Assembly: GCA_033439265.1 (NCBI GenBank)
Contig: JAVTVX010000009.1
Coordinates: 9,141,109-9,205,108 of the forward strand
Direction of reading: 5' to 3'
Length of the DNA stretch: 64,000 nt
Origin: Dillenia suffruticosa
Lineage: Eukaryota > Streptophyta > Magnoliopsida > Dilleniales > Dilleniaceae
In this document: in pieces, positions 15,793-53,560 of the stretch
How positions within the stretch are numbered: the first letter of the stretch is position 1
Layout: each line of letters starts with the position of its first letter
Position numbers and translations under genes: made by a program
Notes under the pieces: model-generated
The model's input: the letters and a program-made list of their open reading frames with translations, nothing else
Database searches by the model: none
What the model was told of the DNA's origin: nothing

Positions 15793-16232
15793 TATTGATT
15801 AAATGCCCACACGTGGGCCAAGTTAAAATTTAAAAGTTTAAAATAAAGGGGTAATGGGTATTATCCATTACCCCACTCTCTCCTATTTTTCTCTCCACAT
15901 AACTCCTACGGGAGTTGTAACCCAAAAATGTGATTGGTGATTGTTGAAAGAAGGATTTTTTTTTTTTTAAAGAAAAGAAGAGATCATCACGAGAGGGTTT
16001 TCTCCGATTAATGCAAAAATCATCGGGTTAAAGATTGGAATGTTGTGGTATCGTATTAATAGTTCGTTTTACGTGACTATCATCCAAACTACGAGTTGTT
16101 CCAATTCAAAGTTTACGGTTTCTGAGATTTTCCGTATCACCGATTGAGATATACCGTGAACTTATCTTTTACGATTCTGAAAAATTGTTTACTGTTGTTG
16201 CCGTTGCGTGATTGAGTCACCATTATCTAACA
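15793..16232 (+). repeat. Left LTR of copia element
   Basis: This 440-bp LTR begins TATTGATTAAATGCCC and ends CCATTATCTAACA. It matches the right LTR at about 92% by eye, with small indels. Confidence 0.9.
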
Positions 16233-22451: not shown

Positions 22452-22888
22452 TATTAATTAAATGCCCACGTGGGACAAGTTAAAATTTAAAAGTTTAAAA
22501 TAAAGGGGTAATGGGTACTTACCCATTACCCTACTCTCCCTTATTTTTCTCTCCACATAACTCTTACGGGAGTTGTAACCCAAAAATGTGATTGGTGATT
22601 GTTGAGAGAAGGAATTTTTTTTTTTAAGAAAAGAAGAGATCATCACGAGAGGGTTTTTTCCGATCAACGCAAAAATCACCGGATTAAGGGTTGGAACGTT
22701 GTGGTATCGTGTTAATAGTTCGTTGTACGTGACTATCATCCCGACTACGAGTTGTTCCAGTATAAAGTTTGCGGTTTCCGAGATTTTTCGTATCACCGAT
22801 TGAGATATACCGTAAACTTATCTTTTACGATTCTGAAAAATTGTTTACTGTTGTTTCCGTTGCGTGATTGAGTCACCATTATCTAACG
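22452..22888 (+). repeat. Right LTR of copia element
   Basis: This 437-bp LTR begins TATTAATTAAATGCCC and ends CCATTATCTAACG, followed by the GTATC duplication. Confidence 0.9.
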
Positions 22889-23763: not shown

Positions 23764-25549
23764 TGTCACGCCCCGACTCTCGGATCGACCACGCAACAGC
23801 CGCCGCGTTGTCTCGGTACACGGGCAGAACCTCCCCTTATACCGGGACTCCGCAAGGCTACAAATCAGTTCAAAACTCATCCAATACACACTCCATCAAA
23901 AATGGGAAAAATCATATGACAATACACATATAAAGGACCCATCCGGTCCATCCCTGTACACATGAGCATGCATCGACACGCGAATGGGGCGGGGGTTCCT
24001 GTACATGCATACATGCAAAAATTGACAATTCCAGCCATTCCAGAATTCTCAGCATAATTAAAACATTTAAAACAAAGAAGTCCCAAATCATAATCGCAAG
24101 ATTTTACTAACATTCGCATGGAAAAACGAGCTAGCGTCAGTAAAATCCAAGCGGTATGAGATGTACAGAACTTCACAAATCCAAAAGAAAGTATCGAAAT
24201 TCAGGATTTCAATCCAAATGTCCCATATGAGAGTTTAAAAGAAAATAAACAAGTTTCGTACAAACCATGTAAGGATTCCATTAATACTTGCTCTTATATA
24301 TGAAACAAGTATTAATTTAATCCATACCAAAAGAGTTATACAAGTCTTTCATTCCATGGACTTCAAAATCAACCAAAATGAACTTGCATTTCTATGTACC
24401 TACACAAGTCAGCGGAATAAATCCTCCCCAGCTCCAATTTCTGCAGCAGATCTAAATTTCCTCTGAAAAATGTTAAAGGGAGGGGTGAGTATTGGGAAAT
24501 ACTCAGTGAGTGGAGTGCAATGGTATAATTGTGTGATAAATGAAGGGTGAATGTGGGAGTGTCAAGTATATCTCAAATAACATTTCATATATGTCGAAAC
24601 ATTTTTCAATAAATCAGGTAATTCGTAAAGTATGCATCCACATCAAGTATTCTTTCAGAAAATCACAAGGGTCCCATCGAAATTACTTCCGTCTTGCGTT
24701 TGGCCGAACCAAGACGAAAGCCCGCCAAGAGGTTTTCCATTTCAATATTTCAAACACTACCCCCTTCCTTGACATTGGCTCGGACCTCCCCGAGGTGCAA
24801 TCCGGATAGTCCGACGTGGCAGAGCAGAGGCCGCGTATACCTCTCTCGCAATAAAACCCCAACCACGCCACCCCGTCGGATCGCTCCGTGGAGGGAATGA
24901 CTATAGCCATTAACTAACAGCATCATGCATTTATCAAATATGTCATTTCTCAAGTCATGTGCCATAATTTCTAGCAACCAATCATCAATTTCGTGTCATA
25001 GCAATTTATAGAGCAACATCAAATCACATATGGCACATATGCATTTATAAATACAATGGATGCATTCATGCTTCACAATCCAGTCCGGACATCCCACGAT
25101 CACAAAACAATTGATATAAAACATGAAAAATCTTACAAAATCATTTATAAAACAATTTTAAACTCATTTGCTCATTTATAACACAACGGACCATCCACTC
25201 ACCTTTTAGGGAGGGTATCCACTCCCTATGCCCTATCGATACTCAAGAAATCTCCTTTCAAGCTCCAAAAAGGTCAACTTAGACCAATAATCCACAATTT
25301 CAATTCAAATTTCAAGAAAATCTATTCTAATCAGCCAAATAAGTTCTAATTTCATCTAACACGTTTCTTTCGTATTTAATCAACCTAAATTCATGTAGAA
25401 TTTAGACGTAACCCTAGAAATCACATATCAAAATTCGGGAAAATATACTCTTTTCAAATTTCAGACATTTTCAGAATATATACAAATCTCTCATTCTAAA
25501 TTCGGACTAAACTCATTCAAATTTCTAAAGGAACTAGAATTTCTCTTAC

Positions 25550-25607
25550 CTAGGGTTTCGCAGCTTGCAGCTCTAGCGTCCGTGCGTCTACAACTCGGTC
25601 CAGACCA
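25550..25607 (-). other. Predicted 58-bp LTR mini-exon (copy 3)
   Basis: On the minus strand it follows ATTACAG and ends AAACCCTAG before GTAAGAGA. The upstream donor-like site is CGCAG/GTAAGA (exon end 25704), leaving a 96-bp gap. The next acceptor-like site is TTTTTCAG, with the exon resuming at 24462. Confidence 0.62.
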
Positions 25608-29830: not shown

Positions 29831-31105
29831 CTACAGTATTACTTCCCTGCCCATCCTCGGTGCATTGCTAGTGGAAGGTGTAGGAGCAATCGTCGAATCT
29901 CTTCTAAAACCACTCGAGGGACCTCTAACTTGTCGGCTTCCTTGCCCTTCTACATTTAACTCCGGACAAGAGTGCCGAATGTGACCCTCCTTCCCACAAT
30001 GGTAGCATCTTTTGGGTTCCACACATGGACCCGGATGACGTCCCTTGCAATTTGGGCAAGTTTCTCCTCTGCCACCCATGGACCCTACTCCCATACCAAC
30101 AGTTCTGCTGGGAGCACTAGGCCTAAAAGTAGATTGTCTTGGAAGAAAGCCAACCGATCCCGAAAAGGATCTACCGCTATAAGAGCCCATGTCTCGACTT
30201 CTTTTAAAATCTTGACTCGAACCGGAGCCACTAGGCCTCTTTCCTTTCCCATGATGCTCTTTGACTTTGTTTCTCTCCATCACCATTTTCTCGGCCCTCA
30301 AGGCCAAGTCTAGAATGTCTTGGAAAGTATGCCCCTTGGTGATGGGCATTTTCTCTCTGATATTCAAATTTAGTCCCGACTCGAACTTTGAACTTAGAGA
30401 CTCCTCGGAGTTCACAAACTCCGGAACATAATTAGCAAGCTCTCTCAGTTCTGTCTTGTACTCAGATACTGTCTTGTTTCCTTGAGCTAATTTGAAAAAA
30501 TCCTCTCTTTTTTGATCCCGATAGAATCGGGTGTCGTATTTCTCCTCGAAGGCCCTAAGAAATTCTGTCCAATTAAGAGGAACAGGAGCCCTTCCCTTCA
30601 CATTCTCCCACCATGTTCTTGCACCTTTATCCAACAGTTTCACCGCCACCCATAATTTCATCTCATCGCTTAATCTCATGTCGGAGACGGTCTCTTGAAC
30701 TCGGCCAATCCATTCCTTGGCCACTGAAGCATCAGAAGTACCCGCGAATGTCTCACATCCTAATTGTCTTGCCTCCTTTATCAACTTAGATAACTTCACA
30801 GTAGGGCGATCGGTTGTTGTGACAACCGGAGGAGGAGGCGCTAGTGGGGTACTAGGAGTAGCAACCGGCACTGAAGGAGTGGTCGGTGGAGGAGCTGAAG
30901 TCGCATGTGGAGCTTGGTACTGCGCTCCGAAGGTGTTCCACCACTCTATTACTTGCTGAAGAGCAGCAATAGGAGGAGCCGAAATCCCGGTAGGAGGAGC
31001 CGGCTGTGTAGGTACGGAAGGAGGAAGAGCATGCGAGGACGACTCATCCTCATGCTCCGGCGGAGGAATCTCATTCACATTTCTCATTCTCTTTCGTGGA
31101 GGCAT
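29831..31105 (-). pseudogene. Gypsy gag of element B (open frame of 424 codons)
   Basis: The frame starts MPPRKRMRNVNEIPPP and has a proline-rich N terminus. The retrotransposon gag core follows (WWENVKGRAPVPLNWTEFL, FFKLAQGNKTVSEY), then a basic Ser/Gly-rich stretch and a CCHC zinc knuckle (CYHCGKEGHIRHSC, about 29967-30008). It would form the virus-like particle capsid and bind element RNA. The predicted start lies a few bases after an acceptor-like TTGTGTAG. The pol region of the same copy is broken, so the element as a whole is treated as a fossil. Confidence 0.9.
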
Positions 31106-31340
31106 AGTGATCTACACAACAAGAAGTTACAATTAAGTCAAACGGTTAAGCGAAGGCTAATATTTAACCCCCTAAAAAGAATGTTTCTAATTTCCTAAGA
31201 AATCCATGGAAGACTTTGTACATTCTCCGAAAACCTTTTTCGAAAACCAAACATTTCAAAGTTTTTACAAAACTCTAGGGACATTTGGAAACATTTGAAA
31301 TTATATCGAAAACCATCAAACTTTTAAAAATCGTGAACCT

Positions 31341-31354: not shown

Positions 31355-33145
31355 TAAAGCTGTCACGCCCCGATTCTCGGATCGACCACGCAACAGCCGC
31401 CGCGTTGTCTCGGTACACGGGCAGAACCCCCCTTATACCGGGACTTCGCAAGGCTACAAATCAGTTCAAAACTCATCCAATACACACTCCATCAAAAATG
31501 GGAAAAATCATATGACAATACACATATAAAGGACCCATCCGGTCCATCCCTGTACACACGAGCATGCATCGACACGCGAATGGGGCGGGGGTTCCTGTAC
31601 ATGCATACATGCAAAAATTGACAATTCCAGCCATTCTAGAATTCTCAGCATAATTAAAACATTTAAAACAAAGAGGTCCCAAATCATAATCGCAAGATTT
31701 TACTAACATTCGCATGGAAAAACGAGCTAGCGTCAGTAAAATCCAAGCTGTATGAGATGTACAGAACTTCACAAATCCAAAAGAAAGTATCGAAATTCAG
31801 GATTTCAATCCAAATGTCCCATATGAGAGTTTAAAAGAAAATAAATAAGTTTCGTACAAACCATGTAAGGATAACATTAATACTTGCTCTTATATATGAA
31901 ACAAGTATTAATTTAATCCATACCAAAAGAGTTATACAAGTCTTTCATTCCATGGACTTCAAAATCAACCAAAATGAACTTGCATTTCTATGTACCTACA
32001 CAAGTCAGCGGAATAAATCCTCCCCAGCTCCAATTTCTGCAGCAGATCTAAATTTCCTCTGAAAAATGTTAAAGGGAGGGGTGAGTATTGGGAAATACTC
32101 AGTGAGTGGAGTGCAATGGTATAATTGTGTGATAAATGAGGGGTGAATGTGGGAGTGTCAAGTATATCTCAAATAACATTTCATATATGTCGAAACATTT
32201 TTCAATAAATCAGGTAATTCGTAAAGTATGCATCCACATCAAGTATTCTTTCAGAAAATCACAAGGGTCCCATCGAAATTACTTCCGTCTTGCGTTTGGC
32301 CGAACCAAGACGAAAGCCCGCCAAGAGGTTTTCCATTTCAATATTTCAAACACTACCCCCTTCCTTGACATTGGCTCGGACCTCCCCGAGGTGCAATCCG
32401 GATAGTCCGACGTGGCAGAGCAGAGGCCGCGTATACCTCTCTCGCAATAAAACCCCAACCACGCCACCCCGTCGGGTCGCTCCGTGGAGGGAATGACTAT
32501 AGCCATTAACTAACAGCATCATGCATTTATCAAATATGTCATTTCTCAAGTCATGTGCCATAATTTCTAGCAACCAATCATCAATTTCGTGTCATAGCAA
32601 TTTATAGAGCAACATCAAATCACATATGGCACATATGGATTTATAAATACAATGGATGCATTCATGCTTCACAATCCAGTCCGGACATCCCACGATCACA
32701 AAACAATTGATATAAAACATGAAAAATCTTACAAAATCATTTATAAAACAATTTTAAACTCATTTGCTCATTTATAACACAACAGACCATCCACTCACCT
32801 TTTAGGGAGGGTATCCACTCCCTATGCCCTATCGATACTCAAGAAATCTCCTTTCAAGCTCCAAAAAGGTCAACCTAGACCAATAATCCACAATTTCAAT
32901 TCAAATTTCAAGAAAATCTATTCTAATCAGCCAAATAAGTTCTAATTTCATCTAACACGTTTCTTTCGTATTTAATCAACCTAAATTCATGTAGAATTTA
33001 GACGTAACCCTAGAAATCACATATCAAAATTCGGGAAAATGCACTCTTTTCAAATTTCAGACATTTTCAGAATATATACAAATCTCTCATTTTAAATTCG
33101 GACTAAACTCATTCAAATTTCTGAAGGAACTAGAATTTCTCTTAC

Positions 33146-33203
33146 CTAGGGTTTCGCAGCTTGCAACTCTAGCGTCCGTGCGTCTACAACTCGGTCCAGA
33201 CCA
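33146..33203 (-). other. Predicted 58-bp LTR mini-exon (copy 4)
   Basis: It has the same borders as copy 3: ATTACAG before and GTAAGAGA after on the minus strand. The upstream donor-like exon end is 33300. The downstream exon resumes at 32058. Confidence 0.62.
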
Positions 33204-33499
33204 CTGTAATGTTTCCAAACCGAAGCACACTTTAGCAATTAGCCCTAATTTCCAAGAGAATCAAAACCCCTAAACTATTGATAAGAGAATCGTTCTTACC
33301 TGCGTAGGGGATGAAATGTAGGTCGCGGCCTAGGGTTCCGAATGTCTCTTGCTACTGCCGGCTTGGGCTCCTGCGAGGGCTGCAGAAGAGCTTTCGGCAG
33401 AGGGAGAGAGCAAAGCGCGAGTGTGCGAGCAAGGAAAGGACAGCGCTACTGTCGCGCGCTCGGGAAAGGGTGAAGAGAACCCATTCACGCGTGCGCGGG

Positions 33500-33700
33500 A
33501 GAGGAGAGAAACGGAGAGTGAAACAGAGAGTGAGGATGAGAGAGAGATAAAGAGAGAGAGAGAAAGAGAGAGTCGGGAGAGGGAGAGAATGAAAGAAACA
33601 GAGAGGGAGAGATTGGGGGTGAGAGATGAGAGAAAGTGATGGGAGAGAGAATTCGTGAGAGAGAGAGAGAGTAAACCGGGAGAGGGAGAGAATGAGTGGA
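33500..33700. repeat. GA/CT-rich tract in LTR of element B
   Basis: This long GAGAGA-rich tract (CT-rich on the sense strand) sits at the start of the predicted LTR transcript. The other LTR has it at about 25900-26100. Long frames on both strands here are composition artefacts. Confidence 0.75.
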
Positions 33701-33997
33701 AGAATTGGGAAAGTGACTTTTTCACTTTCCCGATTTTTTTTTTTTTTTCTTTTTTTTATCTTTGTCGGTGCCACAACTCCCCCTGATCCTTTTGTCTTGT
33801 TTCTTTCTTAATCGTCCATGATAGTGGTCTGATAGGTAAAACTTTGTTATAAAGCCAGAGGCTCTATATACCCTTGTTTAAATTATTTCGTTGGGTTCCA
33901 GGATGAAAATTTGTCAAAAGAAAATGTTGTTATGGTCTCCTGTAGATGGTTTCTTCATGTTAAAGTTAATATTCTGGAATATTTTGCACCTTTGCCG

Positions 33998-34075: not shown

Positions 34076-34715
34076 GTTATTTGTGGGCCGTGCCTCTCCC
34101 CATTCCTAAAAATATGAACTCAAGATTGTGAACTAAAGAAATCTTTTTAAAAATGTAGATCCATTTAAAAGCAATCAGGAAATCTTTTTACACTAACTAA
34201 AAAAAAGATAAGCATAAGGAAATATTTCAAATATGATTAAAATTCATTACTTCAGCAGTATATGCCTTAAAAGATTGTGAACTCAAGAGGCATGATTATA
34301 AGTTGACAGACACAGCTCAAAATAAAGAATCATTACACTTGCCTCTCTATTGTTCCTCTGAATTCAATCTGATGTGCTTCCGGCTCCTCAACTCCATTCC
34401 TACAGCAAGCTTCACCAGGAAGGGAAAAAATAAACTGTGCATTTCTTCTCTGTATCCAACAGCGGTGTACTATACAAGGAAAAACTACATGTGACACGGT
34501 CCCAGAAGAGTAATGCTATTAGAACCAAAGAAAACAATGCTCAAATTGATAAAATCTGACATGGTGCTCAAATTGATAAATTCGTGACACTATTTCATAA
34601 TCTTAAAAACCGTTCTAGATGATTGTCTATTCATCCATTCTTTTAGAAGTCTGTGTGTCACCAGGCACCTTTTTTTTTTTTTTTGGTTAATGCAACAGTT
34701 ACTTCAGACTAGAAA
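34076..34715. other. Intergenic DNA with a possible minus-strand terminal exon
   Basis: Mostly featureless. On the minus strand, 34333-34400 follows an acceptor-like CTGTAG and reads GVEEPEAHQIEFRGTIERQV before a stop. It could be the last exon of an unrecognised host gene, but it is only 68 bp and unassigned. Confidence 0.25.
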
Positions 34716-34780
34716 TGTAATACCCAATTTAAAAAAAAAAAAAAATAAAAAAATAAAAATTAGGGCTTAAAGCCCAATTT

Positions 34781-35630
34781 TCTCCCCTTTCTCCCTCTCT
34801 CTCTTTCCCCCTCTCTTCTTTCTCTCTCCCTCTCCCTCTCTCCTTTTCTTCTCTCTTCTCCCGATCCCCCGCCGCCGCGCCTCTCTCTTTTGCTGCCATC
34901 CTCCGCCGCGAGCGACCGCCCGAATCAGCCGCACGATCTTCCTCCCACGAGTGCGCCGTGGCCGTCGCTGCTCCAATCCTCTACGAGCGCGCGACTGCAG
35001 CGCGATCTCCAATCCTCAGCAAGCGCGAGCACAGCCGCGCGATCATCTCCGCGTGAGCGCTAGCGCCACCGCGCAGTCTTCCTCGTGAGCGCGCGAGCGC
35101 TGCAGCGCGACCCTCCCTCGCGTGAGCACGCGATCGCTCGAGCACGCCGTAGCACGAGCCCCAGCGCGCCCCAGCGCGTCCCAGCGCGCTCCAGCGCCAA
35201 GCCAGCGCCCGAGCCAGCGCCCGAGTCAGCGCGAGCCCAGCGCGCGAGACCAGTGCGCGAGCCCAACGCGCGAGACCAGCGCGCGAGCCCAGCGCCAGCC
35301 CAGCACCAGCCCAGCGCGAGCAGCCCGCGAGCAGCGCGCGAGCAGCCCGCGAGCAGCGCGCGACACCCAGAGCGCGACCCCAGCGCACCCTTGCGCGCCT
35401 CTGCCCGAGCCCCTGCGCACCTCCAGCACGAGCGCAAGCGCTCCAGCGTGCGACCCACTGCGTGAGTGCTCGATCCAGCTCGCGAGCGCGACCCTAGCCA
35501 CTGCGGCCCAGTCCAGCACACGGCCCAGTCCGGCCCGCGGCCCACCAGGCCCGCAGGCCCACCAGGCCCGCCAGCCCATCAGCCCGCGGCCCACGGCCCG
35601 CGACGGCCCGTGACAGTCCGTGAGCCTCTG
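34781..35630 (+). repeat. CT tract and GC-rich tandem array in LTR of element A
   Basis: A CT-rich tract (34781-34860) is followed by a GC-rich array dominated by AGCGCGCGAGCCC-type units (about 35150-35380) and CCCACCAGGCCCG-type units (about 35530-35600). The right LTR has the same array at about 42980-43800 with a different unit count. Confidence 0.8.
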
Positions 35631-35736
35631 CGAAGGTAAATGACTCTAAGTTTCGATTTTTCGCACTTGGGTTTCGAATCTCTTTAGTAATTGGATTTAA
35701 ATTGTTCGCAATTGTTTCAAATTTGGAAACATTAAG

Positions 35737-35794
35737 GTTTTAGACCAAACCGACGGGCGAACGAAAGCTAAATCTGAGATCCGAAGAATCCTAG
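35737..35794 (+). other. Predicted 58-bp LTR mini-exon (copy 5)
   Basis: It follows ATTAAG and ends GAATCCTAG before GTGAGAGA. The upstream donor-like site is CGAAG/GTAAAT (exon end 35635), a 101-bp gap. The downstream acceptor-like TTTCAG ends at 36853. It contains no ATG. Confidence 0.62.
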
Positions 35795-36794
35795 GTGAGA
35801 GAAATGAAATCTCTTCAACCCTTGAATAAACTTTGTCAAATTAGGTAGCATTAGTTGATTTGTTTATAAATTGAGGAATTTAGGATTCGTACGAATTAAG
35901 AAAAAAAAACGATAAACCCTGAAATAGTCGGAAATTGATAAAAATCGTGATGATTGATTAGGTTGGCTATTTTGGTGACTCGATTGAGGGGCGCCTTGTT
36001 TTACGTATTTTGGTGTTATTGGGGAGTGCGCTACCTTCCCCAAAACTGTGAGTGGGATTTATTTTAATACTTTTGTTTAATATGTAAATCCTGTTTTACA
36101 ACATTTTGATAATGAGCATGATTTGTCGTATGTTGGAAATGTTTTGACCGGTTTTAAAATTGACTTTTGTGAACCGTTGGAGTGTCCAAAAACTGTATTG
36201 AATTATGAAATTATGCATCCATGTGGTTGAAATGTATAATGTGCCATTTTATACTCTATGTTGCATCGGTTTATGAACCTAACTTTGGCACAATTTGATA
36301 TGATATTGATTTGGCCTTGAGGGCTTTGATATGTATTGTTCCGTAGCTACGAAGGACACCGTGAGAGGCGCTTTGGTGGCGTCCGGATATGCCTAGGCCT
36401 GGGGTATCCCACGAGTTGTCGTGATTTGATTATCTACACGGTACTAGCCAGGTTGAACCCGAAACGGGGAGGATTTGGATTTGGATTGGATATCCTCTCC
36501 AAGTCTAGCACCTGGACGAGGTTTGTCGCCAACGCCGGGGTAGAGAGCACTTTAAAGAAATTTGCATATAACACCCCCGGTGCGCCTGTTATAGGTCGCG
36601 GTAGACCTCTGCCAGGACATTTTCGGCTGGCAGTTCTATGATTTTAATGACAGTGCTTTGGATGCATATTTGACTTGAAAATGCGTGAAATGATATATTG
36701 TTGAAATAAAAAGCATGATGATTTGAAATATGATTTATATACTTATGTTTTGACACGCCAGTTTCACACTCCATATTTGACGATTGCATTGACC

Positions 36795-36853
36795 CACTCA
36801 CTCACTGAGTATTCTCTCCCGAGTACTCACCCCTCATTTCCCTTTTGTTTCAG
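36795..36853 (+). promoter_or_regulatory. Conserved hairpin, branch-like motif and acceptor in LTR
   Basis: CACTCACTGAGTATTC pairs through GAGTATTC with GAGTACTC, then ACCCCTCATTTCCC, a pyrimidine tract and TTTCAG. The 8-bp stem, the CTCAC branch-like motif and the Y-tract/CAG recur in this order in the other LTRs. Function as a splice acceptor is inferred. Confidence 0.55.
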
Positions 36854-37488
36854 AGATAGTATTTGACAAGGAGTGTCGCTTTTAGGACGCTCAGTATCTT
36901 TGGGAGATCAGGCCTGGACTTGAGGAGTTATTGTGTATTTCCGCTGCAAAAAAAAAATTTGTATTGGTGATGTATTTGTATTCTGAGGTCTATAGATGAC
37001 CATTTTTATAATTATGGGATGACTGTATAAATATGGACATTTAAATTGTGGAACTCTCATGTCACTGCATGACATTGCATTGAGGCATTTCTTTTTCGTT
37101 GCGTCTGTATTTGGGAATGTGTCATGTCTTAGAATTGTCCTCTAGGATCGCTCGGTGCCTCCTCTAAATCACAGGAGGGGCGACTGGCGGCTGTCCATGC
37201 CTTTGACGGGGGCATGGCAGTAGAGGTCTGTGGTTAGGACTGTGGAGAATTGTTTGTTAGCCTTGCGTTGCCCTGGATTGTGTAGTAGGATGATCTGATT
37301 TGTTGTTGAGGATAATATATGCATTTTGAGGCCGGGATGGCCCCTTTTGGACAGATAACAGGTTTATTTTAATATGGGAGACCTCCGATATATGGGGAGG
37401 TTCTGCCCGATTTTCTGTAAAAATACAGCCGGCATCTAGGGTAACGGGCGGCTGCTCACGATCCCGGGTCGGGGCGTGACAGTTGGAT

Positions 37489-37501
37489 TGGTATCAGAGA
37501 C
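37489..37501 (+). other. Primer binding site of element A
   Basis: TGGTATCAGAGAC lies seven bases after the 5' LTR. It fits the initiator tRNA-Met complement used by many plant gypsy elements. Confidence 0.88.
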
Positions 37502-37784
37502 GACTTGGTTAAGAGCTATGTAGGAAGAGAGTCTTGGAAACATTCCCGAATATATTAGTTTTTAAAGTCCTCAATGCATGAGAGTTTCATACAGTCATGA
37601 AGTCCCAGTGCATGGTCATAGGCATATGAGTTCATCTATTTTAGGGGGTTAGATACGGTTGTATCTAACCTAACTTGTTATATTCTTCTCCTATTGAACT
37701 AAGACTCTCATCCTTTTGTGAAGGTAGCCATGCTATGATTAGTCCAAAATTCTTGGACCGTGCCTATTCTTTTTATGATAATAA

Positions 37785-37801
37785 ACATCTTTCTCTTGCA
37801 G
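37785..37801 (+). promoter_or_regulatory. Acceptor-like site just before gag
   Basis: ACATCTTTCTCTTGCAG ends four bases before an ATG that begins a gag-like N terminus (MPPRR-type). The related element at the right edge has CCTTCTCTTGCAG in the same place (63801-63813), also four bases before ATG. This suggests a spliced gag leader. Confidence 0.5.
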
Positions 37802-37861
37802 AATTATGCCACCTAGACGTGAAGGAGAGGTGCTAGATTCGCATCGCTTGAGGGTCTGTTA

Positions 37862-39265
37862 GTGCCAGATGCACCTCGGGCACCCGAGACCCCACGAGTA
37901 CGAGAGGACTTAGACGAGCCAGAGGATCGTACCTCGACTCGCATGCCACCACCGGCACCTACTCAGCCAGCTGCTCAGGCTGAGACTCCTGTACCCACAC
38001 TCGACGCCTTTAGGCAGGTGTATGAGTGGTACGCTTCGCATGGGGTTCAGATTCCGCCCCCACCACCTCCTACAGCGGCGCCTGCACCTGCAGCAGCGCC
38101 AGTTCCTACAGCACCGTTTCCACCGCCGGTGGCCGGTCCTTCTACTTTGTCCGAGCCGAGTGAGGCCACTTCGACTATTCTTAGAAGGGTACATGAGCTG
38201 ACTCAGTTGGTTAAGGAGGTCCGTCAGCTAGGGTGCACAGATTTTGCAGGGCTTGGTGATGCTGCGGCAGCCAAGCATTGGATCAACCGCACCCGCAGGA
38301 TTCTGACCGATCTGGGGATTGGAGAGGAGCTCTGCCTGAAAGTGGCAGAGCGATTATTAGAGGGAGAGGCCCTCTCATGGTGGGAGACCCTTACTGATGA
38401 GGCAATAGAGCCACTGCGGTGGGACGACTTCCTTCGGGAGTTTGACCGCAGATTTTTCCCACTCTACCAGCAGGACCGGATGAGGTCAGAGTTGGGACGG
38501 CTTACACAGGGGTCCAGATCTGTCTCGGAGTATGAGGCAGACATGCGGAGACTTACCGCATTTGTACCAGATCTGGCCACACCTCAGTATTTGCGCTTCA
38601 AGTTTGAGGACGGTCTTAACCTCAGCATAAGGAGGTATATGACTGTTACTCCACAGTTTACACTGGCCGAGGTGATAGACTCTGCTCACCGCGCGGAGGC
38701 TTTGGTCCGCGCTGAGACTAGGCAGAAAGAGAACAGAGAGCAGAAGAGAAAGAAGGAGAAGTCTCATTTTGCGGAGAATTCCAAGAGGGGCAGGGGATCC
38801 AGTTCGTACAGAGGCGGATTTGGATCTGGATTTCCTGAGCTGGGACGGGGACAGTACTCCCAGGGGTTTAGACAGCCCGCACCGACTCACCCTGCACAGT
38901 TTACTACTCAGCGGCACCCTTATTGCCGCAGGTGCAGTCAATCCCATCCGAGCGGAGTTTGTTCAGTGACGGTCACTTGCTTCCATTGTGGGAAGCCGGG
39001 GCATATTAGGAGTTTTTGCCCTGAGTTAGGACTCGGAGGACAGAGTTCACTGAGCCGCACTAGTACTCCTCGTATGGGACAGCAGGGGCAGCCTGTTCGG
39101 CCAGCAGTTTCTACTCCCAGTGTGACCACTGGGAGTAACACAGTGCAGACTCAGGCACGACAGCAGCCTAGGACTCAGGCCCGGGTTTATGCCATGACGC
39201 AGGAGGACGCCCAGGCGAACCCCGACATCATCATGGGTACTCCTCTTTCTGATCCTGTAGAATAG
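37862..39265 (+). pseudogene. Gypsy gag of element A (fossil)
   Basis: This frame has a proline-rich N terminus (MPPPAPTQPAAQAE, PPPPPPTAAPAP). The gag core includes LSWWETLTDEAIEPLRWDDF, LGRLTQGSRSVSEYEA and FEDGLNLSIRRYM. A basic linker and a CCHC zinc knuckle follow (CFHCGKPGHIRSFC, 38978-39019). It is homologous to the gag at 29831-31105 and to the partial gag at the right edge. Its role would be capsid formation and RNA binding. The element is treated as broken. Confidence 0.88.
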
Positions 39266-39475
39266 GATCTCTATTCGTATTCTCACTTCTTTTGAGGATG
39301 TCAGCATTGTATCAGTCGTATGGGTATTGTATGTTGTGTTCCCTTTTGTCGACATGATACTACTCTGACATTTTTGTACACCGAGATTGTAGAAGCCCTA
39401 GAGGCTCAACTATTTTGATATATATATATACATGTCAAGTTTGAAATTATTCTAAGTCTATGTGCATTTTGTTCA

Positions 39476-42400
39476 ATGATAGGTACTCTACCCATTTTCG
39501 GAATAGATGCTCGTATCCTTATTGACACGGGGTCTAATTATTCGTATGTGAGCGATAAATTCTCCCAACACTCTGACAGACCGCTCTCACCTTTGGACGA
39601 GGAGATATCGGTCATCACTCCTCTGGGTGAGCAGATTGTGCGCGGCACAGTGTATAGAGAATGTGAAATCAAAGTTGGGGATACAGTGCTGAAGGCAGAT
39701 CTAATCCCTCTCGCCATGACTGATTTTGATGCCATCTTGGGGATGGATTGGCTACATATGCATCGGGCTTCGGTTGACTGCTTTAAAAAGCAGGTGGAGT
39801 TTCGAAAACCCGATCAGCCAGTGTTGATTTTTGAGGGCGAGAGGCGGGTTTTACCCCGCTGTGTCATTTCAGTTTTGGAGGCTAGACGCATGATTCGCCG
39901 CGGATGTGTGACTTACCTGGCTCATATCATTGACACCACTGCTCAGGGACCGAGACTGGAGGATGTCCCAGTGGTACAGGACTTTCCTGATATTTTCCCC
40001 GAGGAGCTGCCTGGACTACCACCTGTTCGGGAGTTTGACTTTAAGATCGATTTAGCTCCGGGGACTACCCCTATTTCTATGCCGCCATACAGGATGGCGC
40101 CGGCTGAGCTGAGAGAGCTCAAGGTCCAGCTGCAGGAGTTGCTGGATAAGGGGTTTATCCGTCCTAGCACGTCTCCGTGGGGTGCACGGTGTTGTTTGTG
40201 AAAAAGAAGGACGGCACATTTCGGCTATGTGTAGATTATAGACAGCTGAACAAAGTTACAGTTAAAAATCGGTACCCACTACCACGTATTGATGATCTCT
40301 TTGATCAATTACAGGGTGCCAGAGTATTCTCGAAGATAGATCTCCGGTCGGGTTACCATCAACTGCGGATTAGGGCCGAGGATGTGCCTAAGACGGCTTT
40401 CCGCACCCGATACGGACATTATGAGTTTTTGGTCATGCCGTTTGGGCTGACTAATGCCCCTGCCGCATTTATGGACCTAATGAACCGAATTTTTCATGAT
40501 TATTTGGATCGGTTCGTCATTGTTTTTATTGATGATATCTTAGTCTACTCGCGGAGTGATGATGAGCATGCTCAGCACCTTAGGGTGATTTTGCAGACTC
40601 TTCGTGAGAGACAGCTTTATGCCAAGTTCACTAAGTGTGAATTTTGGTTGCGGCAGATTGGTTTTCTTGGCCATGTAGTTTCTGCGGAAGGTATCTTTGT
40701 TGATCCGCAGAAAGTTGAGGCTATCTTGAGATGGGAGCAGCCACAGACAGTGACTGAGATCAGGAGTTTTCTTGGTCTAGCCGGGTATTACCGTAGGTTT
40801 GTAGAGGGCTTTTCTCAAATTGCGGCTCCGTTATCTAGATTGACGCGAAAAGGTGTAAAGTTTGTATGGGATGATCGTTGTGAGGTGAGCTTTCAGGAGC
40901 TCAAACAACGATTGACGTCCGCTCCGATTCTAGCCCTTCCCACGAGTAGTCGAGAGTATGTGGTGTACAGTGACGCCAGCAGGCAGGGATTGGGCTGTGT
41001 ATTGATGCAGGATGGTAGAGTTATCGCCTATGCTTCGCGACAGCTAAAGAAGCATGAGGTGAATTATCCTACGCACGATTTGGAGTTGGCGGCCATAGTC
41101 TTTGCGCTAAAGATATGGCGCCACTATTTATATGGGGTCACATGCAGAGTGTTTACAGATCACAAAAGTCTAAAGTATCTGTTCACTCAGAGGGAGCTGA
41201 ATTTGAGGCAGCGGAGATGGTTAGAGCTGCTAAAGGATTATGACCTCATTATTGATTATCATCCGGGCAAGGCTAATGTAGTGGCTGATGCCTTGAGTTG
41301 GAAGTCGTCTTCCTCTTCTCAGACTACCGAGAGTACTTATCTCTCGTGTTTATTGGGACTCCGAGCTTTGGGAGTCAGGTTGGCTAGTGATGATCAGGGA
41401 GCTATACTAGCCAGATTTGAGGTTCGGCCGAGTTTGCTCGATCGTATCAGGGAGCTTCAGCAGAGTGACGAAAAGCTCCGAGGTATTTATGAGAAAGCCA
41501 GTAGAGGTGATATTGACGACTTTAGAGTTCGCAAGGATAGACTGTTGGTTTTTCGAGATCGAGTATGTGTACAGGCAGATAGTGATCTCCGCAGGGCTAT
41601 TCTCGAGAAGGCCCATTCATCTGCCTATACTTTACATCCCGGTAGTACTAAAATGTACCGCACCATCAGAGACAGTTATTGGTGGTCTGGTATGAAACGG
41701 GAAATTGCAGAATTCATTGCTCGTTGCCTTGTATGTCAGCAGGTGAAGGCTGAGCACCAGCGTCCAGCTGGCACATTGCAGCCCCTTCCCATTCCTGAGT
41801 GGAAGTGGGAGCATATCACGATGGATTTCGTAGTGGGGTTACCGCGAACTTCGGCACAGCATGATGCTATTTGGGTGATAGTTGACCGACTTACTAAGTC
41901 CGCACATTTCATCCCGATTAGGAGTGATTACTCGCTTGAAAGGTTGGCACGCCTCTATATTGATATGATCGTGAGACTACATGGGGTTCCAGTGTCGATA
42001 GTATCAGATCGAGACCCCAGATTTACATCCCGTTTTTGGCCCAGTCTGCAGGAGGCTTTGGGTACTAGACTGAATTTCAGCACAGCGTATCACCCCCAGA
42101 CAGATGGTCAGTCAGAGAGAACTATTCAGACTTTAGAGGACATGCTTAGGGCATGTGTTATGGATTTCCGGGGGAGTTGGGATCGACATCTTCCGTTGGT
42201 GGAATTCGCCTATAATAATAGCTATCAGGCGAGCATTGGCATGCCACCTTACGAGGCATTGTATGGGAGGAAGTGTCGTACCCCGTTGTGCTGGGATGAG
42301 GTTGGTGAGCGACGACTCACCAATGTTGAGCTGGTAGAGGAGACGAAGGAGAAAGTGAGGATTATCCGTACGCGGATGAAAGCCGCCCAGGATAGACAGA

Positions 42401-42864
42401 AATCCTATGCAGATCGTAGGCGGCGACCTCTAGAGTTTACTGTGGGAGACATGGTATTCTTAAAGATATCTCCCTTGAAGGGAGTCATTCGATTTGGGCA
42501 GCGAGGGAAGTTGAGTCCCAGGTATATTGGGCCCTTCCGTATCCTTGAGAGGGTTGGAAGTGTAGCATATAAATTGGAGCTGCCAGCAGATCTATCGCGT
42601 GTTCACGATGTATTTCATGTCTCAGTACTTAGGAGATATCAGCCAGATCCCTCACACATTTTAGAAGCTCCGCCAGTTGAACTTCGAGAGGACTTGAGTT
42701 TACCTGTTCAGCCTGTGACTATTCTGGATCGACAGGTCAGAAAGCTACGGAGCAAAGAGGTTCCTCTTGTCAAAGTTTTGTGGAGGAGCGACCAGGTCGA
42801 GGAACAAACTTGGGAGCCTGAGGAAGCCATGAGGAAACAGTACTCCCATCTATTTTCTGTATAG
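39476..42864 (+). pseudogene. Gypsy pol region of element A: PR-RT-RH-INT-chromodomain (fossil)
   Basis: Protease has LIDTGSNYSYV near 39520. Reverse transcriptase has [11 protein letters not shown] near 40340 and FIDDILVYS near 40530. RNase H has [11 protein letters not shown] near 40965 and [16 protein letters not shown] near 41070. Integrase has the HHCC region (ARCLVCQQ) near 41720, [10 protein letters not shown] near 41825, SDRDPRF near 42005 and [11 protein letters not shown] near 42105. The last 60 residues look like a chromodomain ([19 protein letters not shown]), which in chromoviruses steers insertion to marked chromatin. Most of pol is one open frame; the copy has about two breaks overall. 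Confidence 0.93.
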
Positions 42865-42897
42865 TTTTCTTTTAGTCTCGAGGACGAGACTTGTTTT

Positions 42898-42912
42898 TAG
42901 GGGGTTAGAAAA
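42898..42912 (+). other. Polypurine tract of element A
   Basis: TAGGGGGTTAGAAAA lies directly before the right LTR, matching the equivalent site of element B. Confidence 0.75.
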
Positions 42913-45658
42913 TGTAATACCCAATTTAAAAAAAAAAAAAAAAAAGGAAAAATAAAAATTAGGGCTTAAAGCCCAATTTTCTCCCCTTTCTCCCTCTCTC
43001 TCTTTCCCCCTCTCTTCTTTCTCTCTCCCTCTCCCTCTCTCCTTTTCTTCTCTCTTCTCCCGATCCCCCGCCGCCGCGCCTCTCTCTTTTGCTGCCATCC
43101 TCCGCCGCGAGCGACCGCCCGAATCAGCCGCACGATCTTCCTCCCACGAGTGCGCCGTGGCCGTCGCTGCTCCAATCCTCTGCGAGCGCGCGACTGCAGC
43201 GCGATCTCTAATCCTCAGTGAGCGCGAGCACAGCCGCGCGATCATCTCCGCGCGAGCGCTAGCGCCACCGCGCAGTCTTCCTCGTGAGCGCGCGAGCGCT
43301 GCAGCGCGACCCTCCCTCGCGTGAGCACGCGATCGCTCGAGCACGCCGTAGCACGAGCCCCAGCACGCCCCAGCGCATCGCAGCGCGCTCCAGCGCCAAG
43401 CCAGCGCCCGAGCCAGCGCCCGAGTCAGCGCGAGCCCAGCGCGCGAGACCAGCGCGCGAGCCCAGTGCCAGCCCAGCACCAGCCCAGCGCGAGCAGCCCG
43501 CGAGCAGCGCGCGAGCAGCGCTCGATCAGCGGACGAGCAGCGCGCGACACCCAGAGCGCGACCCCAGCGCACCCTTGCGCGCCTCTGCCCGAGCCCCTGC
43601 GCACCTCCAGCACGAGCGCAAGCGCTCCAGCGTGCGACCCACTGCGTGAGTGCTCGATCCAGCTCGCGAGCGCGACCCTAGCCACTGCGGCCCAGTCCAG
43701 CACGCGGCCCAGTCCGGCCCGCGGCCCACCAGGCCCACCAGGCCCGCCAGCCCATCAGCCCGCGGCCCACGGCCCGCGACAGCCCGTGACAGTCCGTGAG
43801 CCTCTGCGAAGGTAAATGACTCTAAGTTTCGATTTTTCGCACTTGGGTTTCGAATCTCTTTAGTAATTGGACTTAAATTGTTCGCAATTGTTTCAAATTT
43901 GGAAACATTCAGGTTTTAGACCAAACCGACGGGCGAACGAAAGCTAAATCTGAGATCCGAAGAATCCTAGGTGAGAGAAATGAAATCTCTTCAACCCTTG
44001 AATAAACTTTGTCAAATTAGGTAGCATTAGTTGATTTGTTTATAAATTGAGGAATTTAGGGTTCGTACGAATTAAGAAAAAAAAACGATAAACCCTGAAA
44101 TAGTCGGAAATTGATAAAAATCGTGATGATTGATTAGGTTGGCTTTTTTGGTGACTCGATTGAGGGGCGCCTTGTTTTACGTATTTTGGTGTTATTGGGG
44201 AGTGCGCTACCTTCCCCAAAACTGTGAGTGGGATTTATTTTAATACTTTTGTTTAATATGTAAATCCTGTTTTACAACATTTTGATAATGAGCATGATTT
44301 GTCGTATGTTGGAAATGTTTTGACCGGTTTTAAAATTGACTTTTGTGAACCGTTGGAGTGTCCAAAAACTGTATTGAATTATGAAATTATGCATCCATGT
44401 GGTTGAAATGTATAATGTGCCATTTTATACTCTATGTTGCATCGGTTTATGAACCTAACTTTGGCACAATTTGATATGATATTGATTTGGCCTTGAGGGC
44501 TTTGATATGTATTGTTCCGTAGCTACGAAGGACACCGTGAGAGGCGCTTTGGTGGCGTCCGGATATGCCTAGGCCTGGGGTATCCCACGAGTTGTCGTGA
44601 TTTGATTATCTACACGGTACTAGCCAAGTTGAACCCGAAAGGGGGAGGATTTGGATTTGGATTGGATATCCTCTCCAAGTCTAGCACCTGGACGAGGTTC
44701 GTCGCCAACGCCGGGGTAGAGAGCACTTTAAAGAAATTTGCATATAACACCCCCGGTGCGCCTGTCATAGGTCGCGGTAGACCTTTGCCAGGACATTTTC
44801 GGCTGGCAGCTATATGATTTTAATGACAGTGCTTTGGATGCATATTTGACTTGAAAATGCGTGAAATGATATATTGTTGAAATGAAAAGCATGATGATTT
44901 GAAATATGATTTATATACTTATGTTTTGACACACCAGTTTCACACTCCATATTTAACGATTGCATTGACCCACTCACTCACTGAGTATTCTCTCCTGAGT
45001 ACTCACCCCTCATTTCCCTTTTGTTTCAGAGATAGTATTTGACAAGGAGTGTCGCTTTTAGGACGCTCAGTATTTTTGGGAGATCAGGCCTGGACTTGAG
45101 GAGTTATTGTGTATTTCCGTTGCAAAAAAAAAAATTTGTATTGGTGATGTATTTGTATTCTGAGGTCTATAGATGACCATTTTTATAATTCTGGGATGAC
45201 TGTATAAATATGGACATTTAAATTGTGGAACTCTCATGTCACTGCATGACATTGCATTGAGGCATTTCTTTTTCGTTGCGTCTGTATTTGGGAATGTGTC
45301 ATGTCTTAGAATTGTCCTCTAGGATCGCTCGGTGCCTCCTCTAAATCACAGGAGGGGCGACTGGCGGCTGTCCATGCCTTTGACGGGGGCATGGCAGTAG
45401 AGGTCTGTGGTTAGGACTGTGGAGAATTGTTTGTTAGCCTTGCGTTGCCCTGGATTGTGCAGTAGGATGATCTGATTTGTTGTTGAGGATAATATATGCA
45501 TTTTGAGACCGGGATGGCCCCTTTTGGACAGGTAACAGGTTTATTTTAATATGGGAGACCTCCGATATATGGAGAGGTTCTGCCCGATTTTCTGTAAAAA
45601 TACAGCCGGCATTCAGGGTAACGGGTGGCTGCTCACGATCCCGGGTCGGGGCGTGACA
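42913..45658 (+). repeat. 3' LTR of element A
   Basis: This 2746-bp LTR begins TGTAATACCC and ends CGTGACA, followed by AGAAA. It matches the 5' LTR closely; the GC-rich array is the most variable part. Confidence 0.95.
43913..43970 (+). other. Predicted 58-bp LTR mini-exon (copy 6)
   Basis: It follows CATTCAG and ends GAATCCTAG before GTGAGAGA. The upstream donor-like exon end is 43811 and the downstream exon resumes at 45030. Confidence 0.62.
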
Positions 45659-45663
45659 AGAAA

Positions 45664-47165: not shown

Positions 47166-48180
47166 TGCTCACCCAATTGTAGTACTTCAACCCTTGGGAA
47201 TTTGGATGGGAGGTTGCCCAAAATGCTAGATGGGCATGAATGATGATGAATATGGGTGGAGTACACCTTGTTGCATGGCAATTATGTCCTATGCATAAGG
47301 GTGGTTCGTTGAGAAGAATAAAGTAAAAGAAAAGAAAACTAACGATCTAGATAGATTCCAATGAACTAGATAGAAGGACTTACATCCTAGATAAAAGGAC
47401 CGAATTACTCACTAGGAGTTTGGAATAATTCTTTGCATGATGCACCAATGTCAATTCATGTAGTGACACGGGTTCACTGCATGGTGCCTCATGCAGTAGA
47501 TCAGGGGCATTGCATGGTGCCTCATGTGCTGGCTTGGTGCTGTTCTGTGCACTGCTGTGTAGTGGCTTGTGCATTGGTGTGCCTTTATCGAGCCATGCCT
47601 CTATCTCCTCGAGTATTGGCCCTATTTCTTCCGGCATTGGTATTCCTGCTCGTGTCTCTTTGCTTGTTGGTTCATTGGTGCATGATTCCTCAGTCTTATG
47701 CTCGTAACCGTGGTGTGCTATGTCATGGTAGTGCGTTGCCTTGTCTTCTCCATGCCATGGCTTGTGCTGGTGCATTACGTCTTGCACCTTGGTGCCTTTT
47801 GGCATGTGTTGCTTAGTGTTTTGTCGTGCTGTGGCATTGCTCCTCTTGGCATTGGCATGTGCTCATGTGCAGGGTGCTCATGTCATGGTGTGTGCTCATG
47901 CGTGGGCCGCCCATGCATTGATGAATCTTTGCATGGTGTCCTTTCAAGTGGTGGCCTCCTTGCTCTTGCAATTGCATGTGCACTTGTCAGCTTAGGCTAC
48001 TTAGTGACAATTACTTGTGGTGTATTGCTTGATGAGGCATGATGGGTCGTGACCCTTGACATGACTTGAGGTGAAACTCTTTCATCCATGCAAGCCTCCA
48101 TCATGTCATCTTGCATGTGCCCTGCGGTTATTTGCTACATGCGACCTAGTGTATTGCACATGGCCTCATGAAGGGTTGCA
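47166..48180 (-). repeat. Left terminal repeat of element D
   Basis: This 1015-bp repeat starts TGCTCACCCAATTGTAG in plus orientation and ends AAGGGTTGCA. It is homologous to 50875-52260 and contains repeated GCATGGTGCCTC-type units. Confidence 0.8.
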
Positions 48181-48472
48181 TCATTCGCCCCCTTGAAGTT
48201 GAACCTTGTCCTTAAGGTTCTTGTGATTGCAACCTTTGTAGTTGAACTTGTCATCCTTCCTTGGGGCTTACCTTCAGTGGTGACTCTTCCATTTGTAAGG
48301 CATCTCTTGTCTTGAATGTTCTCCTTTTTGGATCTTCCTTGAGTCTAGTCTCTACCTTTTGAAATGATTCCTTGAATATTCCCTTTTGCTTGCTAGGAAC
48401 TCCATGTTGGGGTTTTTTTTTGCGTGTTGTTTCTTCCTTTCTTGCTTGTATCCTATGGAGGTTGAACTTCAA

Positions 48473-50874: not shown

Positions 50875-52260
50875 TGCTCACCCAATTGTAGCATCGAAAA
50901 CATTTCAACCCTTGGGAATTCTGGATGGGAGGTTGCCCAAAATGCTAGATGGGCTTGAATAATGATCAATATGGATGGAGTACACCTTATTCACGGCAAT
51001 TATGTCCTATGCACAAGGGTGGCTAATTGAGAAGAATAAAGAAAAAGAAAAGAAAACCAAGAAATTAAGGAACTAAGGAAAAGAAAGATTGCTCATGGCC
51101 GTTGGCAAATTGCCTTAGTCATGTGCAAAAAAATGAAAGAAAACTAATGATCTAAATAGATTCCAGCAGATTGGATAGAGGGAATTATGACCTGGATAAG
51201 GGGACCGAATTGCTCACTAGAAGTATGAAATTTTACTTAATTCTTTGGATGATTACAATGATAATGGACTACCTTATTTATAGAGAGGGCTGAGAGACCA
51301 AAGGGCTCCTTTATATTATTGACTCTACTAAAAACACTCTTAATAATTACCAATTATTGCACTAATAAAACTCTCAATAATTAGGCAGTTACTTTGCCTT
51401 TTATTATACATATTATGATTTTTGAAAACACTCTGAATTAATTTATTTGGGCAGTTACTATTCTTAGTGACTCTTGGCCTTTCAGTTAACCGGGCATTAC
51501 ATGATGTGTTGCCTGATGCGCTGACTCTTGGAGTCTCATGCAATGGCATTAGTTCACTGCATGGTGCCTCGTGCAGTGGCTCAGGGGCGTTGCAGGGTGC
51601 CTCAAGTGTTGGCTTGGTGCCGTTTCATGTGTTACTGTGCAGTGGCTTGTGCGCTGGTGTGCCTTCATCGAGCCATGCCTCTATCTCCTTGAGCATTGGC
51701 CCTATTTCCTCCGGCATTGGTATTTTTGCTCGTGTCTCTTTGTTTGTTGGTTCATTGGTGTGTGATTCCTCAGCCTTATACTCATGTCTGTAGTGCTATG
51801 GCATAGTACTGCACTGGCTTGTCTCCTCTGTGCCATGGCCCATGCTGGTGCATTATGTCTTGCACCTCTTCATGCATTGGTGCCTTTTGTGTTGCTTGGT
51901 ATCTTGTCATGTTGTGGCATTGCTCCTCTTGGCATTGGCATGTGCTCATATGCAGGTTGCTCATGCCATGGCATGTGCTCATGCGCAGACTGCCCATGCA
52001 TTGATGACTCTTCACATGGTACCCTTTCAAGTGGTGGCCTCATTGCTCATGTAATTGCATGTGCACTTATTGGCTTAGGCTCCTTAATGACAATTGTTTG
52101 AGTATTGCTTAATGAGGCATGAAGGGTCATGACCCTTGGCATGACTTGAGGTGAAACTATTTCATTCGTGCAAGCCTCCATCATGTCGTCTTGCATGCTC
52201 CTCATGATTATTTGCTGCGTGTGACCTAGTGCGTTACACATGGCCTCATGAAGGGTTGCA
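50875..52260 (-). repeat. Right terminal repeat of element D
   Basis: This 1386-bp repeat is homologous to 47166-48180 and ends AAGGGTTGCA. In the element's own orientation it is the 5' repeat. Confidence 0.8.
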
Positions 52261-53560
52261 TAAAAAATGTTGAGAAGGTGGTGCGTGTTTCACACGCGCC
52301 GATACGTGAGAGTGGGCATGCGTAGGCACGTGAAGGCCATGCTCCGGTGCAACCCATGTTCGGCGGTGTGTGAAGGCTCTAATCTGGTGGAAATTTTTGT
52401 GAAAATATTTTTTATTTTTTCTGAAAATTTTTTATAATTTTTAATTTATTTTTCAGAATTGAAAAGCATTTTTTATTGATTTTTAAACTTATAAATTGTT
52501 TAAAATTACAGAAAAATTACTTTCAATCCTAGAAAAATTCTGAAAATTTTTATAAGTTAAAAAGATTATTTTCTTATTATTGACTATCCAAATGATTTTT
52601 TTATATACCCTTTTGATTTTATGTTCATTTATTTGTGTGTTGAAAAAAATTAGTTTTTCAACATAAAATTAATTAAAAATTGATCTTTTTTTTTTGAAAT
52701 TGGTATTTTAAATTTTATATCACATTACGATTGGTATGTGTCTAATCTAATTTTGATTCCCATTTTACAATGTGGTGAGGGTTAGACACACACTTAGCAT
52801 TCTCAAAGAGTGCTAGAGTTTTGAGAACTCTAGAACATTTGGCAATATTAGGTGTAATAATACATAATAGGTCAAATCCTATATATACTTTGCCACATCT
52901 TTTGAAGATTATAAAAGAAAAACGTTTGGAGTTTATCACTTAGGCCATTGGTTTGGAGATACTAATGTAGAGAATAATGTGATTAGAAATTCATTTATTT
53001 GATGACCACAATAATTAAAATATGAAGGGCTAAGAATATGAAAATTAAGATGGAGATATAATTATCATTTAGGATAAACAGTTCTAACCCATGTGCTATA
53101 AAGAGGTTCACTTCTACCAATAGATATTTAGAAGGAAAAATTAATATACTATCTCACATGTATATGTTATGAGGATAGATATTTTTATTTTCTTTATTTC
53201 CTATGAAAGATAACTAATCATGCGCCCTGATCATGTTTTATGTAAACTTGTGAGTTAGAATGCAAAGTTTTTATTTTAAATATGAATTGAGAATGTTTGC
53301 TTATACGTGTGATTTGAACGATTTAAAATAAACGCATACTTAGATGATCATAGGTACATGTGAAAACATATATTCTTATATCACATGATTTAAATATTTT
53401 ATGTATTTAAGTGGAAGATCTTTTTGTTTTAAAGAATTTGAGTAATTTTTAACTAAAATTTATTAAATTTTGTTATTTAAAATTAAATTTGTGATAGTAA
53501 TAAATTAGAACTATAGATGATGATTAGAAATTTAGTAAATTTTCGATTCTTTACCTAATG
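52261..53560 (+). other. Copia relic leader, AT-rich
   Basis: The first 130 bp resemble the GC-rich leader island of the other copia element (GTGCGTG, GGCGGTGTGTGAAGG). The rest is AT-rich with no supported gene. Confidence 0.5.

Follow-up and report, generated by a model that had tools for sequence, protein, structure and literature searches.

A putative cis-spliced, multi-exon leader encoded in the long terminal repeats of a probable chromovirus of Dillenia suffruticosa

Introduction

Transcripts of long terminal repeat (LTR) retrotransposons must serve as both message and genome. Why some elements combine long LTRs with leaders that are very long and rich in ATGs has so far been unexplained. 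A stretch of 64,000 nucleotides (nt) of Dillenia suffruticosa DNA (contig JAVTVX010000009.1, positions 9,141,109-9,205,108, forward strand; hereafter the window) raises the question of whether such LTRs carry introns of their own and, if so, which of the resulting RNAs would be translated and which replicated. The window holds eight long LTRs of gypsy-type elements, here assigned to groups A-F. Element A (34716-45658, plus strand) is complete, with a 5' LTR of 2766 bp (34716-37481, plus strand; TG...CA), a 3' LTR of 2746 bp (42913-45658, plus strand) and a target-site duplication (TSD), AGAAA, at 34711-34715 and 45659-45663. According to the initial annotation, a mini-exon of 57-59 bp in each LTR is spliced on both sides within the LTR, giving a "spliced leader," and unspliced RNA serves as the genome. 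Here we follow up this proposal in the window and in the 596-Mb genome that contains it.

A mini-exon and a short intron in the LTRs

All eight mini-exons annotated in the window are indeed in place, 57-59 bp long, with AG directly before and GT directly after on the element strand. On the plus strand they lie at 35737-35794 (5' LTR of element A; 58 bp, ATG-free), 43913-43970 (3' LTR of element A), 5462-5519 (group E) and 61364-61420 (group B), and on the minus strand at 8824-8882 (group D), 25550-25607 (group C), 33146-33203 (group C, within the 5' LTR of the C element, 31360-33777) and 58300-58357 (group F). The upstream donor predicted for seven of the eight was recovered as well: a GT in AG|GTAA context is found in groups A-E and none in F, the distance to the mini-exon being 101 bp in the two A copies, 81 in B, 96 in the two C copies, 91 in D and 87 in E. 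Across groups, intron 1 is thus 81-101 bp long and the mini-exon, which would be exon 2, constant at 57-59 bp. The pyrimidine tract with CAG or TAG reported farther downstream is present in 8/8 LTRs at 1.06-1.4 kb and ends in TTTCAG, except for CTCAG in E and CTTAG in F.

In element A, predicted exon 1 (34784-35635, plus strand; its 5' end is uncertain) has a GC content of 0.72 and contains no ATG in this copy. It is followed by the 101-bp intron 1 (35636-35736, plus strand; GTAAATG...CATTAAG) with a GC content of 0.31, as compared to 0.47 in exon 2 and 0.39 in the in-LTR version of intron 2 described below. The base composition of the predicted exons and introns is therefore intron-like where introns are placed. 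The putative core promoter or start region (34740-34800, plus strand) is A/T-rich, has a TTAGGGCTTAAAGCCC motif and includes the beginning of a CT tract. A palindrome-like ATTAGGGCTTAAAGCCCTAAT stands directly before the CT tract in A (34716-34800), E (approximately -830 from the mini-exon) and F (approximately -500), and we take it to resemble the telo-box/site II promoter motifs of plants. The 35100-35600 part of exon 1 consists of short, CpG-rich GCGCGAGCC-type repeats, and its length varies among copies.

Conservation of the splice borders

If the mini-exon is spliced, its borders should be kept above their flanks among genomic LTRs, as the initial annotation expected. This was examined in 60 further copies (20 of the 38 places listed for A outside the window, 20/39 for B, 12/38 for C and 8/39 for D), and the border dinucleotides were kept more often than other GT or AG dinucleotides in all four groups. 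The four border dinucleotides were retained in 80/80 (A), 73/80 (B), 47/48 (C) and 32/32 (D) cases, and the other GT/AG of the same stretches at fractions of 0.955/0.953, 0.752/0.768, 0.886/0.900 and 0.779/0.793, respectively; two of the seven misses in B are unaligned stretches. These figures are descriptive and carry no formal probability, because the copies are related and the trials not independent. The comparison rests on a shorter alignment and on per-family alignments; a global MAFFT alignment of 48 LTR cores misplaced introns and some borders.

Between groups, with one copy taken from each of five, mean identity reaches 0.87 for the acceptor-1 trinucleotide and 0.77 both where exon 2 ends and at donor 2; it is 0.35 in the middle of intron 1, 0.49 in the remaining exon 2 and 0.21-0.31 in intron 2. 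The value for donor 1 is 0.43 because gaps shift E in that alignment. In other words, the GT-AG ends of intron 1 are kept while its interior diverges, as in spliceosomal introns. Since these ends are alike, by eye, in A, B, C and D, intron 1 appears to be ancestral.

LTRs that lack intron 1

Splicing of intron 1 before reverse transcription implies that LTRs without this intron should exist. An 18-base A-type exon1|exon2 junction was therefore searched for in the genome, with the reversed junction as a control, and gave 54 exact matches and 151 matches at up to 2 mismatches (reversed control 18). In 29 of the 30 exact loci read, exon 1 is joined to an exon 2 of 57-58 bp and the LTR continues (three were judged by eye); at the remaining one, L080, the sequence past the junction is not LTR, for which reason it was left out of the tree counts given below. 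Among 100 listed places there are 25 pairs of intron-less LTRs on the same strand 5-11 kb apart, the random expectation being 0.05, and 0 pairs on opposite strands. Both LTRs of one element would be expected to become intron-less when the transcribed leader is copied into both, and pairs one element apart imply that RNA lacking intron 1 was reverse transcribed. As far as intron 1 is concerned, this does not agree with the proposal that only fully unspliced RNA is used as genome.

For group D, a 22-base junction gave one exact match and three others with 3 mismatches; as the reversed control, allowing up to 3 mismatches, gave 12 matches, only the exact match was counted. It lies in L099, a D-like LTR that shares approximately 76-80% identity with eight D copies across exon 2 and 600 bp. 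Here exon 1 and an exon 2 of 59 bp are fused without any intervening base, and donor 2 is present. Precise presence or absence of intron 1 at the splice borders is thereby found in two divergent groups, A-type and D-type. Such LTRs are the footprint to be expected of LTR RNA that was spliced and then reverse transcribed, and judged from the sequences intron 1 is very probably spliced, with RNA lacking it able to act as genome.

The partner of the second donor

In element A, two acceptors may serve the donor that follows exon 2 (GTGAGAG). One lies within the LTR and is considered with the alternatives. The other, CTTTCTCTTGCAG, stands beside gag, and its predicted pairing with the donor would define a long intron 2 (35795-37801, plus strand) covering the remaining LTR and the primer-binding site (PBS). 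The primer-binding region (37482-37510, plus strand) reads TTGGTATCAGAGAC, presumably similar to the initiator tRNA-Met site of plants. The gag exon of element A would start at 37802-37808 (plus strand) with AATT followed by an ATG at 37806. In the C element (31103-31123, minus strand), acceptor CTTGTTGTGTAG is followed by ATCACT and the gag ATG at 31105, which opens a 424-codon open reading frame (ORF). In group B (plus strand), acceptor GATCCTTCTCTTGCAG, AAGT and an ATG at 63817, open for 49 codons, are found downstream of the mini-exon at 61364-61420. The distance from acceptor to ATG is 4 nt in A and B and 6 nt in C and D.

Among the 19 copies in which both a PBS and the start of gag were recognised, 18 keep the AG of the gag-proximal acceptor: 4/5 in A, 9/9 in C and 5/5 in D, where one site is a weak AAAG. 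This count excludes six copies with a PBS and no recognised gag start (five B, one D). In 5/5 other A copies read, no stop interrupts the frame of the ATG past this acceptor before the sequence read ends, after 65-67 codons; among 14 further C and D copies, eight likewise show no stop within the sequence read and six meet one. One D-like element (L066) has a leader unlike that of other D copies, yet a pyrimidine tract with TAG, TTTTTCCCTTATAG, lies at the same distance from its gag start, which looks like leader exchange between families.

The position of upstream ATGs points the same way. Measured between the CT tract and the gag ATG, the leader of element A has 52 ATGs in 3,022 nt when unspliced, as against 0 in the 914 nt made up of exon 1, exon 2 and the 4 nt before the ATG, and the leader of group C has 65 unspliced against 1 spliced. 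The predicted splice from the mini-exon to the gag acceptor would drop approximately 2 kb, including the PBS. No exact exon2|gag junction was found in the genome among 718 pattern matches around the gag acceptor (control 1; good matches are favoured among those listed), which is neutral evidence because RNA of this kind would lose the PBS. The partner of donor 2 is thus probably not, or not only, the in-LTR acceptor.

Proposed model

We propose that transcription begins near the 5' end of the LTR and that the GT-AG intron of 81-101 nt would be removed, joining exon 1 to the 57-59-nt exon 2. In some transcripts the donor after exon 2 would then be joined to the acceptor 4-6 nt before the gag ATG, deleting the remaining LTR, the PBS and most or all of the upstream ATGs. 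The product would be a messenger for translation that could not be reverse transcribed. RNA retaining intron 2 would also retain the PBS and could become the genome, with intron 1 removed or not.

As a whole, it seems quite likely that the LTR of this probable chromovirus carries a cis-spliced, multi-exon 5' leader feeding either gag mRNA or genome. The particular step from donor 2 to the gag acceptor, giving RNA for translation only, devoid of the PBS, is probable. We lean slightly towards a broader reading in which the LTR would be a small intron-containing gene whose leader, spliced in two steps, chooses between a PBS-less messenger and the genome, and in which replication through intron-1-less RNA would rewrite the LTR, so that past splicing would be recorded in a number of copies between dozens and more than 100. 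The term "spliced leader" is a misnomer here, as it suggests trans-splicing; exon 1, exon 2 and the donor are encoded by the LTRs in cis (spliced-leader genes were not searched for).

Several observations weigh against this model. Loss of intron 1 is unconvincing in group B, where the best of 115 junction matches (control 9) has 2 mismatches (C37:1472159) and the rest 3, those with 3 mismatches being, among 100 listed, mostly the unspliced acceptor. It is likewise unconvincing in group C, where each of the 9 matches carries 2 mismatches (control 3). Of 29 intron-less copies, 25 retain donor 2 and 4 have AT in place of its GT; the in-LTR AG is kept in 8/10 scorable intron-less copies and lost in 2/10. 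In element A itself, a stop follows the ATG at 37806 after just 18 codons, and the frame differs from that of the listed gag ORF, so that the gag start of this copy looks broken. ATGs are present in exon 1 of 5/21 A rows and 18/18 B rows, the D mini-exon holds four, and the scarcity of ATGs in exon 1 reaches <0.05 against dinucleotide shuffles in 9/21 A rows, 1/18 B rows and none of C, D and E. Finally, a genome pattern search for the exon2|exon3 junction expected of double splicing within the LTR found none with fewer than 2 mismatches (1000 matches at 2-3; control 3); 99 of 100 listed are the unspliced acceptor, and no intron-2-less retro-copy of this type was found.

The four copies with AT at donor 2 (L072, L077, L078 and L087) may have decayed, or may belong to lineages in which splicing of intron 2 has ceased. 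Depletion of ATGs in exon 1 had been considered as proof of selection and was rejected, since dinucleotide shuffles attribute the scarcity largely to composition. Owing to this composition and to the exon ATGs of A, B and D, the ATG argument concerns where ATGs lie in A and C and is no proof of selection.

Alternative explanations

The alternative that survives best is splicing within the LTR only, with a short exon1-exon2-exon3 RNA ending past the in-LTR acceptor and gag expressed from a separate RNA. In element A, the corresponding short intron 2 (35795-36853, plus strand) would end at the acceptor at 36852-36853, after a branch-like TACTCAC, a pyrimidine tract and TTTCAG. The branch-like motif and tract occur in all of A-F, and the acceptor is kept in 57/60 sampled copies. 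Just 5' of the acceptor tract lies a hairpin (GAGTAT...TACTC; 36806-36829, plus strand) of the general form GAGTAT(C)..(G)ATACTC, whose loop measures 4-9 nt and whose 3' arm contains a branch-like CTCAC. At least 7 pairs are formed in 52/53 copies in which the motif was found (A 20/20; B 14/14, of 20 copies; C 11/11, of 12; D 7/8), and the hairpin is weaker in F. These features speak for splicing within the LTR only. However, groups A-D have an acceptor beside gag, gag would stay behind dozens of upstream ATGs, and the absence of exon2|exon3 retro-copies counts against this explanation too, making it unlikely. Of the double splicing inside the LTR, as initially annotated, the part concerning intron 1, with its fixed borders and exact loss in two divergent groups, is well supported; the in-LTR acceptor is probably not the partner of donor 2, or not the only one. 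The in-LTR acceptor would then be either an alternative 3' site or the site of a short LTR transcript, and together with the hairpin it might be either the splice site of such a short RNA or an end-processing signal.

The second alternative attributes the missing stretch of approximately 100 bp to DNA deletion between AGGT repeats, the splice-like borders being accidental. AGGT is indeed found at both borders in A and D, which permits deletion by microhomology in principle and thus counts against splicing as the cause. Yet microhomology of 4 bp or more would allow 264 (A) and 336 (D) distinct deletions of 60-140 bp nearby, and it is the intron-exact one that is seen in two groups. The trees of the A/E-like groups require at least 3-4 changes in the presence of intron 1. 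Trees that unite all intron-less copies in one clade are rejected for the exon-2/intron-2 side (approximately unbiased test, p-AU 3e-35; 29 intron-less and 11 other rows) as well as for the exon-1 side (p-AU 8e-15; 10 intron-less and 18 other rows, with long branches), though recombination or regain could mimic this result. One intron-less clade inside the E-like side is rejected only weakly (p-AU 0.038), and the A/E-like losses could thus stem from one event spread by recombination. Recombination could also contribute to the distribution of intron-less copies, and a single early loss with regain in the A/E-like groups is possible, because a young intron-containing A clade nests among intron-less copies. 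Overall, we consider deletion very unlikely to account for the missing introns.

Still less probable is a promoter or DNA-binding function of the conserved block that has nothing to do with splicing. The telo-box-like AACCCTAG and TCCTAG are akin to motifs of plant promoters, but the conservation tracks the splice consensus and includes separate sites on both sides, upstream at approximately 100 bp and downstream at 1-2 kb, and what has been lost is exactly the sequence between two conserved sites. Passive carriage of a captured 5' exon-intron region of a host gene is equally improbable, although the LTR is arranged like a gene, a promoter-like stretch being followed by a GC-rich exon, a small intron and a leader exon, given that the mini-exon occurs in all six LTR groups of the window and is on that account probably old (a host counterpart was not searched for).

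Classification of element A and other repeats

The listed gag ORF of element A (37862-39265, plus strand) has a GTG start, the Retrotrans_gag domain and a zinc knuckle, in a frame different from that of the ATG at 37806. Part of the pol ORF (40177-42864, plus strand) encodes reverse transcriptase (RT), RNase H, integrase and a weak chromodomain. Gag, RT, RNase H and integrase follow each other in gypsy order between LTRs flanked by a TSD. The Pfam Chromo domain matches residues 847-891 of the 40177-42864 ORF, after the integrase domains, with an E-value of 1.4e-4 and 22.2 bits against a curated cut-off of 25.1, and the high-copy gypsy element to which the LTR groups belong is probably a chromovirus. 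CRR, discussed below, belongs to the chromoviruses. Judging from LTR size and primer site, we presume that element A belongs to the Tekay/Del clade.

Other repeats in the window include 7155-8488 with 23936-25268 and 31532-32864 (91% identical), 15793-16231 with 22452-22887 (92%), and 47472-48181 with 51552-52261 (84%). Some of these segments belong to the LTRs of groups D and C, and the pattern suggests nested insertions.

Comparison with known systems

The conservation of the borders and the footprints of intron loss make splicing of LTR leaders directly testable with transcript data. If the model is true, annotation may take LTR introns for plain regulatory sequence, and whether an LTR has its intron could be used as a marker of lineages and of recombination.

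Retroviral donors in the R/U5 leader, such as those of HTLV/BLV and the major donor of HIV, also lie in or beside the LTR, with unspliced RNA serving as genome. They differ in that splicing goes past gag to env or regulatory genes, whereas splicing in the present element would deliver gag.

According to the available part of a December 2025 review, plant LTR elements are generally intron-free, the exceptions including Ogre and EVADE (PMC12786077). Ogre, a gypsy element of the Tat lineage, is partially spliced between gag-pro and RT, and in the portions of the sources at hand it resembles the present element as a partially spliced plant gypsy element and differs in that the introns described here are upstream of gag (PMC6317226, PMC12786077). 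In EVADE, the same part of the review states, alternative splicing to shGAG sets the ratio of protein to genome, yet there part of the coding region is spliced out (PMC12786077). CRR and Bagy2 are further plant gypsy elements with spliced transcripts, splicing of CRR taking out rt to give two ORFs and that of Bagy2 yielding env RNA; the available text of the paper that mentions them does not place their introns in the LTR (PMC3735527). That text describes in BARE1, a copia element of barley, a 104-nt intron in the gag ORF, and reports that DNA copies of the spliced RNA were not amplifiable (PMC3735527). Here, too, splicing would divide RNA for translation from RNA for replication, and a U-rich intron is set between GC-rich exons; the BARE1 intron, however, is in the gag ORF and not in the LTR (PMC3735527), and in the present element intron-less copies have spread.

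Nothing closer to introns in LTRs or upstream of gag in LTR retrotransposons, and no account of the broader reading given above, was found in the open-access literature, subscription papers and preprints being outside the search. The accessible text on LORE1 mentions no leader intron, and in that of a sunflower paper Tekay elements are absent from the expressed set, so that it is uninformative on Tekay.

The nearest precedent is Diaspora, an Athila-type gypsy element of soybean, for which the available text gives five predicted donors within the LTR, along with a pair of acceptors that bracket the start of gag (PMC1142308). These sites are predictions whose relevance was described as "not known," so that in the text at hand splicing of the leader was raised in 2005 without evidence (PMC1142308). 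As far as that text goes, Diaspora shares with the present element a long LTR, a long leader, donors in the LTR and acceptors near the gag start, while the element described here belongs to another lineage and adds conservation of the sites between groups and copies that have lost the intron (PMC1142308).

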